NCBI RefSeq assembly: GCF_000003605.2
Contig: NW_003137897.1
Span: 1-22,179, forward strand
Length of the DNA stretch: 22,179 nt
DNA from: Saccoglossus kowalevskii
Taxonomy: Eukaryota > Hemichordata > Enteropneusta > Harrimaniidae
Direction of reading: 5' to 3'
How positions within the stretch are numbered: the first letter of the stretch is position 1; each line of letters begins with the position of its first letter. The translations under genes were made by a program, and so were the position numbers. Positions 1-995 of the stretch are shown here, piece after piece. Below the pieces are notes generated by a model that was not told where the DNA came from, did not search any database, and saw nothing but the letters and a program-made list of their open reading frames with translations.

Positions 1-36
1 ATAATTTCAACACTTCATCTGTTTCCTCCTTTGTAG
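1..36 (+). promoter_or_regulatory. Putative intron 3' end with splice acceptor
   Basis: The stretch 18-36 is pyrimidine-rich (tct, tttcctccttt) and ends in TTGTAG, the layout of a polypyrimidine tract plus 3' splice-site AG at 35-36. The TAG at 34-36 is an in-frame stop for the frame that is open from 37 onward, so the frame opens exactly at the predicted splice junction. Nothing else is recognisable in 1-36, and a branch point cannot be placed with confidence. The splice role is inferred from sequence only. Confidence 0.5.
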
Positions 37-230
37 TCAACACCAATAAATGTCATAGCAACTACTTCTACTGATGTTGCTACAGACAATGCCCAAACTT
101 CCATGCTACGTGATGCTATGGGAACCATCTTGGACAAGACAGATGGGGAGGATGCCAGTAAAGATGAAGATGAAAGGCTTACTCTAAAATCCCCACTAGT
201 GGATATTGTCAAAGCTATGAAAGACCCCAG
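37..230 (+). CDS. Putative internal exon of an unidentified protein-coding gene (partial)
   Basis: I do not recognise this protein. After the acceptor-like AG at 36, the frame starting at 37 is open for 64 full codons and ends on the split codon AG|G at the donor-like CAG|GTATGG. The exon would be 194 nt, entering at an unknown phase read here as codon-aligned and leaving with two bases of the last codon. The peptide starts Ser-Thr-Pro and has a Thr/Ser/Ala-rich first third. It continues through MLRDAMGTILDKTDG and a strongly acidic stretch around 139-174 (GEDASKDEDER), then ends in a basic-hydrophobic segment, KSPLVDIVKAMKDPR, encoded by the first repeat monomer. No signal peptide, membrane segment or catalytic motif is visible. 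Reading through the donor gives a frame from the ATG at 103 to a TAG at 283-285, only 60 codons. Alternative: a chance open frame in non-coding DNA. Confidence 0.45.
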
Positions 231-235
231 GTATG
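181..235 (+). repeat. First (probably founder) monomer spanning the exon-intron junction
   Basis: Similarity to the array begins at 181: the bases just upstream (ggctt) do not match the end of a monomer (gtatg). The monomer consists of 50 nt of putative exon (181-230) plus GTATG of the putative intron (231-235), after which the next copy starts at 236. Position 1 is A here, as in the many copies reading GTATGACTCT, so that form may be ancestral and the GTATGGCTCT form derived. The first copy is the only one whose reading frame is continuous with unique upstream coding-like sequence. Confidence 0.7.
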
Positions 236-236
236 G
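228..236 (+). promoter_or_regulatory. Putative 5' splice donor of the founder copy
   Basis: CAG|GTATGG at 228-236 matches the eukaryotic donor consensus MAG|GTRAGT at the three exon bases and at GT, A(+3) and G(+5). It closes the open frame from 37. Because it lies inside the first repeat monomer, the same site recurs every 55 bp, as CAG|GTATG or TAG|GTATG. Use as a real donor is inferred. Confidence 0.5.
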
Positions 237-995
237 CTCTAAAATCCCCACTAGTGGATATTGTCAAAGCTATGAAAGACCCTAGGTATGGCTCTAAAAT
301 CCCCACTAGTGGATATTGTCAAAGCTATGAAAGACCCTAGGTATGGCTCTAATATCCCCACTAGTGGATATTGTCAAAGCTATGAAAGACCCCAGGTATG
401 GCTCTAAAATCCCCACTAGTGGATATTGTCAAAGCTATGAAAGACCCTAGGTATGGCTCTAAAATCCCCACTAGTGGATATTGTCAAAGCTATGAAAGAC
501 CCTAGGTATGGCTCTAAAATCCCCACTAGTGGATATTGTCAAAGCTATGAAAGACTCCAGGTATGGCTCTAAAATCCCCACTAGTGGATATTGTCAAAGC
601 TATGAAAGACTCCAGGTATGGCTCTAAAATCCCCACTAGTGGATATTGTCAAAGCTATGAAAGACCCTAGGTATGGCACTAAAATCCCCACTAGTGGATA
701 TTGTCAAAGCTATGAAAGACTCCAGGTATGACTCTAAAATCCCCACTAGTGGATATTGTCAAAGCTATGAAAGACCCTAGGTATGGCTCTAAAATCCCCA
801 CTAGTGGATATTGTCAAAGCTATGAAAGACCCTAGGTATGGCTCTAAAATCCCCACTAGTGGATATTGTCAAAGCTATGAAAGACCCTAGGTATGACTCT
901 ATAATCCCCACTAGTGGATATTGTCAAAGCTATGAAAGACCCTAGGTATGACTCTAAAATCCCCACTAGTGGATATTGTCAAAGCTATGAAAGAC

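Follow-up and report, generated by a model that had tools for sequence, protein, structure and literature searches.

The window, by which we mean the whole stretch of DNA analysed here, comprises 22,179 nt and corresponds to an entire contig (C2937) of a 572-Mb assembly. It opens with the end of an intron and a single exon, and is then occupied up to the contig end by a tandem repeat that starts inside this exon. Each 55-nt repeat unit combines the 3' end of a DEPDC5 coding exon with the first bases of the following intron, and about 400 such units follow one another head to tail. DEPDC5 is a subunit of GATOR1 and a regulator of mTORC1. Exons further upstream in the gene lie on a second sequence of the assembly, scaffold C4224, so that the locus reads as follows:

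C4224 132447-132241, minus strand: upstream exon, 207 nt, ending ATG/GTGAGA, phase 0.
C4224 132031-131903, minus strand: preceding exon, 129 nt, ending AAG/GTAAAA, phase 0.
Window 1-36, plus strand: 3' end of the upstream intron, with a pyrimidine-rich tract and the acceptor ...TTTCCTCCTTTGTAG/, joined in phase 0 from the preceding exon.
Window 37-230, plus strand (C4224 131357-131164, minus strand): window exon of 194 nt, entered in phase 0 and left in phase 2, assigned by the DEPDC5 exon chain.
Window 181-230, plus strand: amplified part of the exon, 49 or 50 nt, from TRF and segmentation.
Window 231-236, plus strand: presumed true donor, CCCAG/GTATGG, the first six intron bases; skipping it would close the frame at 283.
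Window 283-285, plus strand: first in-frame stop if splicing at 230/231 does not occur, inside any exon ending at a later donor.
Window 181-22179, plus strand: 55-nt array, 400 full units plus 2 nt, from TRF and segmentation.

On C4224, the minus-strand segment 131053-131393 matches window positions 1-341 at 100% identity and is followed by a gap of 36,356 N at 94697-131052, with only the first three repeats visible before it. Two peptides encoded further upstream on the same strand matched the PDB DEPDC5 chain 9xzy_H, one at ~135.6 kb (residues 759-843, E 1.6e-34) and one at ~132.4 kb (residues 958-1022, E 1.6e-28), and both follow the order of human DEPDC5. As a positive control, a human DEPDC5 piece matched the assembly only at C4224:135497-135709 (E 2.5e-14), and this search returned no second DEPDC5 copy anywhere in the assembly. 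Since the upstream exons match DEPDC5 and the nearest of them joins window positions 37-230 in phase 0, this segment is, as judged from sequence, a real DEPDC5 exon and the source of the array. The same exon chain rules out a chance open frame at 37-230. The assignment rests on the chain because the exon alone finds nothing in PDB or Pfam: a PDB search with it gave no match, and a Pfam scan produced only a chance-level ZNRF_3_ecto hit below the cut-off (E 0.13). A family search with PF19418 yielded no match here or in the controls and is therefore uninformative. The exon end, SPLVDIVKAMKDP, is identical to human DEPDC5, STLTEILEAMKHP, at 7 of 13 positions and adjoins the DEP domain on its N-terminal side, a resemblance that is weak on its own, its score being equalled by 5 of 1000 shuffled exons.

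TRF reported a single array in the window (182-22179, period 55, 400 copies, 96% matches), and an indel-aware segmentation divided 181-22177 into 400 full 55-nt units followed by 2 nt. The original prediction of at least 400 copies thus holds for this contig, as does its placement of the second copy at 236, which agrees with the segmentation. Its onset of homology at 181 can be narrowed only to 181 or 182: base 181 is an A, and the same unit position reads G in 298 units, A in 101 and C in 1. This base could be original exon sequence or could belong to the unit. A first monomer of 50 nt plus GTATG had been proposed; that the unit spans the boundary stands, while its exact composition is either 50 exon and 5 intron bases or 49 and 6 (GTATGG), with base 181 ambiguous.

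The units are highly homogeneous. Their mean pairwise identity is 96.4%, an indel is present in 15 of the 400, and the gap-free ones (n = 388) fall into 62 types with a mean identity of 97.7% to the consensus. Exact copies of unit 1 number 22 of 400, unit 1 included. Variation is largest at unit position 48 (C in 191, T in 209 of 400), together with A/G at position 1 and C/T at position 46. Runs of identical consecutive units, up to 9 units long, recur at lags of 19, 24, 265 and 278, as compared to at most 6 units in shuffled orders (n = 20). Because these runs recur at those lags and are longer than in the shuffles, blocks of several units have been copied, and the block duplications in the unit order hint at past turnover; some of the recurrence could be an assembly error.

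More generally, the contig might misrepresent unit order or copy number and the real array be far shorter. C2937 is an unplaced contig made up almost entirely of repeat, and a precedent exists among mirages, a class that two reports (PMC3087553, PMC3902484) present in their accessible text as tandemly duplicated boundaries between exon and intron in amphioxus genes: a globin mirage was mis-assembled in a draft genome (PMC3087553). However, C4224 independently contains the same start of the array followed by a gap that is large enough to hold it, the gap length being an estimate, and 62 unit types are not expected from simple collapse or stutter. We regard an artefact of this kind as very unlikely.

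A 34-nt core of the unit, compared to the whole assembly, gave 396 forward matches, all in the window, and 3 reverse matches at the corresponding place in C4224. Confinement of the pattern to these two sequences dismisses a dispersed satellite, and because all core matches fall at DEPDC5, the array must have grown at this locus. Its origin runs from exon to array, and not the other way round, because the exon end resembles human DEPDC5 and the array is absent elsewhere in the assembly. This bears out the earlier proposal that the repeat had captured the 3' end of an exon: the flank is a DEPDC5 exon to which upstream DEPDC5 exons join in phase 0. An RNA gene was also rejected, as the Rfam matches (MIR475, ZNRD1-AS1_2) all scored under the gathering thresholds and recurred with the array; a tRNA search returned none.

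The reading frame open from position 37 runs through 230, as had been foreseen for an upstream frame continuous with unit 1, then reads RYGSKIPTSGYCQSYERP and meets a stop at 283-285. A stop interrupts each exon that would end at a donor of units 2-7. An open exon results from the first donor only, because any exon ending later includes 283-285, and the first donor (230/231) is presumably the one in use. When donors are duplicated, earlier work found the intron-proximal copy to be favoured, which would predict the use of later units here. The donor letters themselves are well preserved across the array: GT is found in 395 of the 400 units, AG/GT in 387 and CAG/GT in 188, with TAG/GTATGG (152) and CAG/GTATGG (132) as the most frequent contexts. 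A coding array is excluded by a mean open run of ~14 codons in every forward frame.

The abundance of AG/GT also invites a different history, in which GTATGG was once coding and an exonic AGGT segment was duplicated, creating a new intron by the route proposed by Rogers; the intron would now begin at the GT of the first unit and end with the AG of the final one. With AG/GT in 387 of 400 units, the last unit could provide that AG, and the accessible parts of PMC4974935 and PMC3629103 offer precedents. The in-frame boundary, KDP-RYG, can moreover be set beside KHP-STG of human DEPDC5 with equal glycine spacing, but this hint is weak because a G at +5 and +6, common among donors, is enough to give the glycine. 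Against this route, the length of 194 nt and the strong donor fit an ordinary exon next to neighbours of 207 and 129 nt, and the stretch before the unit AG, AAAGCTATGAAAGACCCCAG, is purine-rich and would make a poor acceptor. We consider an intron newly made from the array rather unlikely.

Downstream of the array, the gene is lost from sight. Compared to the whole assembly, neither the human DEP-domain piece (best E 0.0995) nor the human C-terminal DEPDC5 piece (best E 0.673) returned a convincing exon, and the same was true of both pieces in the examined part of C4224. The best DEP-domain match, C3458:463669, is the DEP domain of a different protein, which we take to be RAPGEF-like. A candidate exon at C4224:63129-63076 (E 0.011) was discarded as a low-complexity match arising from a T run. 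Further weak matches to the downstream human pieces fell at C4224:158657 (E 0.33), on C645 (E 0.73) and on C1938 (E 0.67). We infer, rather than observe, that the array sits inside a single intron, because the next exon is absent from the assembly.

The missing exons could mean that the array broke the gene, leaving DEPDC5 truncated or turned into a pseudogene, either in the genome as a whole or on the haplotype seen here, and an unspliced array would indeed lead to a stop 18 codons further on. Yet the upstream exons that were examined keep an open frame and resemble human DEPDC5, no second copy of the gene was found, and the C4224 gap exceeds the 22-kb array by ~14 kb, which would leave room for the missing exons; from the size of the gap, they probably sit in it. 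We judge the loss of the gene to be quite unlikely.

We favour, at a probability of roughly three in four, a donor-side mirage, in which tandem duplication of 55 nt over the 3' boundary of the DEPDC5 exon gave rise to a minisatellite that was subsequently enlarged. A duplication across the donor would leave one copy as the exon end and place the other in the intron, and unequal exchange together with the duplication of multi-unit blocks would then have expanded the array to about 400 units. Unit 1 would be the still-working exon end, and units 2-400 and beyond would be intron, adding length only. The gene would keep its function if the spliceosome, reading exons by both ends, skips the half-exons. 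Such an array may be tolerated because its units carry a donor with no good acceptor, as assessed by eye, so that none of them is definable as an exon. Most likely, the array has no function of its own but is a side product of duplication, tolerable under selection.

The neighbourhood of the array holds further repeats at exon edges. TRF, applied to the examined part of C4224 (155,418 non-N bases), reported 18 arrays with a period of at least 18 and at least 2.5 copies; the edges of 9 of these 18 were inspected for exons, and 3 arrays span an exon edge. One lies on the acceptor side of another exon of the DEPDC5 gene (C4224:143552-141839, minus strand), where a unit of ~103 nt is visible in 7 copies, from 143527 to 141839, around a 1,023-N gap. 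This unit joins the end of an intron (...TTACTCTATTACAG) to the initial 54 nt of the exon behind it, and the last copy continues into the true exon, with the coding sequence ...VLENGRKVLTDIDYDAYDAQVF. The match of this exon to DEPDC5 is weak (E 0.14 against single chains, 5.4e-06 against the double-length chain 9xzy_H). The other acceptor-side array (C4224:92133-92410, plus strand) has a 51-nt unit in 5 copies over the acceptor of the exon (S)IANVMREAGCPVPDYMLELPKPSK. This exon gave no match in its own searches, Pfam included; a nearby exon on the plus strand matched Pfam DEAD (E 6.8e-06), and the gene is presumably a DDX52-like helicase. Both acceptor-side arrays lie within 40 kb of the 55-nt array; taken together, the three suggest that minisatellites in this genome have started from exon edges more than once.

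Two further tandem repeats were noted on the scaffold. A 35-nt repeat beyond the 36-kb gap (C4224:94516-94696) is unlike the 55-nt unit, and the gap may contain two arrays. A 36-nt repeat of 45 copies lies between DEPDC5 exons (C4224:137571-139188) and ends with no visible exon edge.

On a broader and tentative view, to which we give clearly less than even odds, the ~400 near-identical donors in one intron of a single-copy gene would be the extreme of a genome-wide growth of minisatellites at exon edges, on the donor and the acceptor side alike. If true, the tolerance of half-exons would have almost no limit; and should the animal, in addition, not be a lancelet, mirages would be no lancelet peculiarity. 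Local G+C content is 34.7% (105,852 bases); that of amphioxus is about 41%. The assembly contains the miR-124 pattern once, as an exact match, and the bantam pattern was not found in it at up to one mismatch, which, given miRNA phylogeny, suggests a deuterostome. A PF01353 (GFP) family search gave no match, nor did its control, so that it carries no weight here. Donor choice among identical donors is usually studied in constructs that contain two or three of them. At this locus, a conserved gene seems to carry hundreds of serial donors, only the first of which keeps the frame open. The case also documents a route from coding sequence to an array of satellite size.

In the literature searched, which left aside most subscription journals, we found no report of this array in DEPDC5, nor of one so large at any exon edge. 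A minisatellite in human IFI6 (6-16) reportedly has a 12-bp unit. According to papers that cite Turri et al. (1995), this minisatellite has several splice donors. It resembles the DEPDC5 array in providing repeated donors where an exon ends; in IFI6, however, downstream donors are used and yield protein variants, whereas in the DEPDC5 array a stop is in frame for every later donor. Intron gain by tandem duplication, following the Rogers model, is described in the available portions of reports on potato RdRp (PMC4974935), fission yeasts (PMC3629103) and the Cryptococcus gene CNN00420 (PMC2395259). These cases likewise involve tandem copies of a segment with splice signals, inside an exon or at its margin, but the arrays are short and are argued to create an intron, while here the intron is most likely older than the array. 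Human internal tandem repeats, linked in the excerpts of PMC2812944 to segmental duplications, also occur at exon-intron boundaries and change gene structure; they differ from the DEPDC5 array in having an average unit of 30 bp repeated four times and in being able to enter or leave the mRNA.

The closest parallel is provided by the amphioxus mirages, known from Adh3, the globins BflGb6 and BflGb9, troponin C and PGBD5 (PMC3087553; PGBD5 from PMC3902484). According to the accessible text of these reports, they exist in donor-side (BflGb9) and acceptor-side (BflGb6) forms, have units of 10-160 bp that are homogenised within a cluster, and are spliced normally, as judged by RT-PCR; the DEPDC5 array is described here from genomic sequence. 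In both, minisatellite-like units lie over an exon-intron boundary with the authentic boundary beside the exon. The unit described here spans such a boundary (49-50 nt of DEPDC5 exon plus GTATG(G)), and the head-to-tail, minisatellite-like array starts within an authentic exon. The unit numbers differ: 3 and 6 in BflGb6; in PGBD5, 2 or 7 for the 60-bp unit and 3 or 6 for the 108-bp one; and 400 here. The DEPDC5 array thus appears to fit the definition of a mirage, at about two orders of magnitude above the 2-7 units given in the available parts of those reports.
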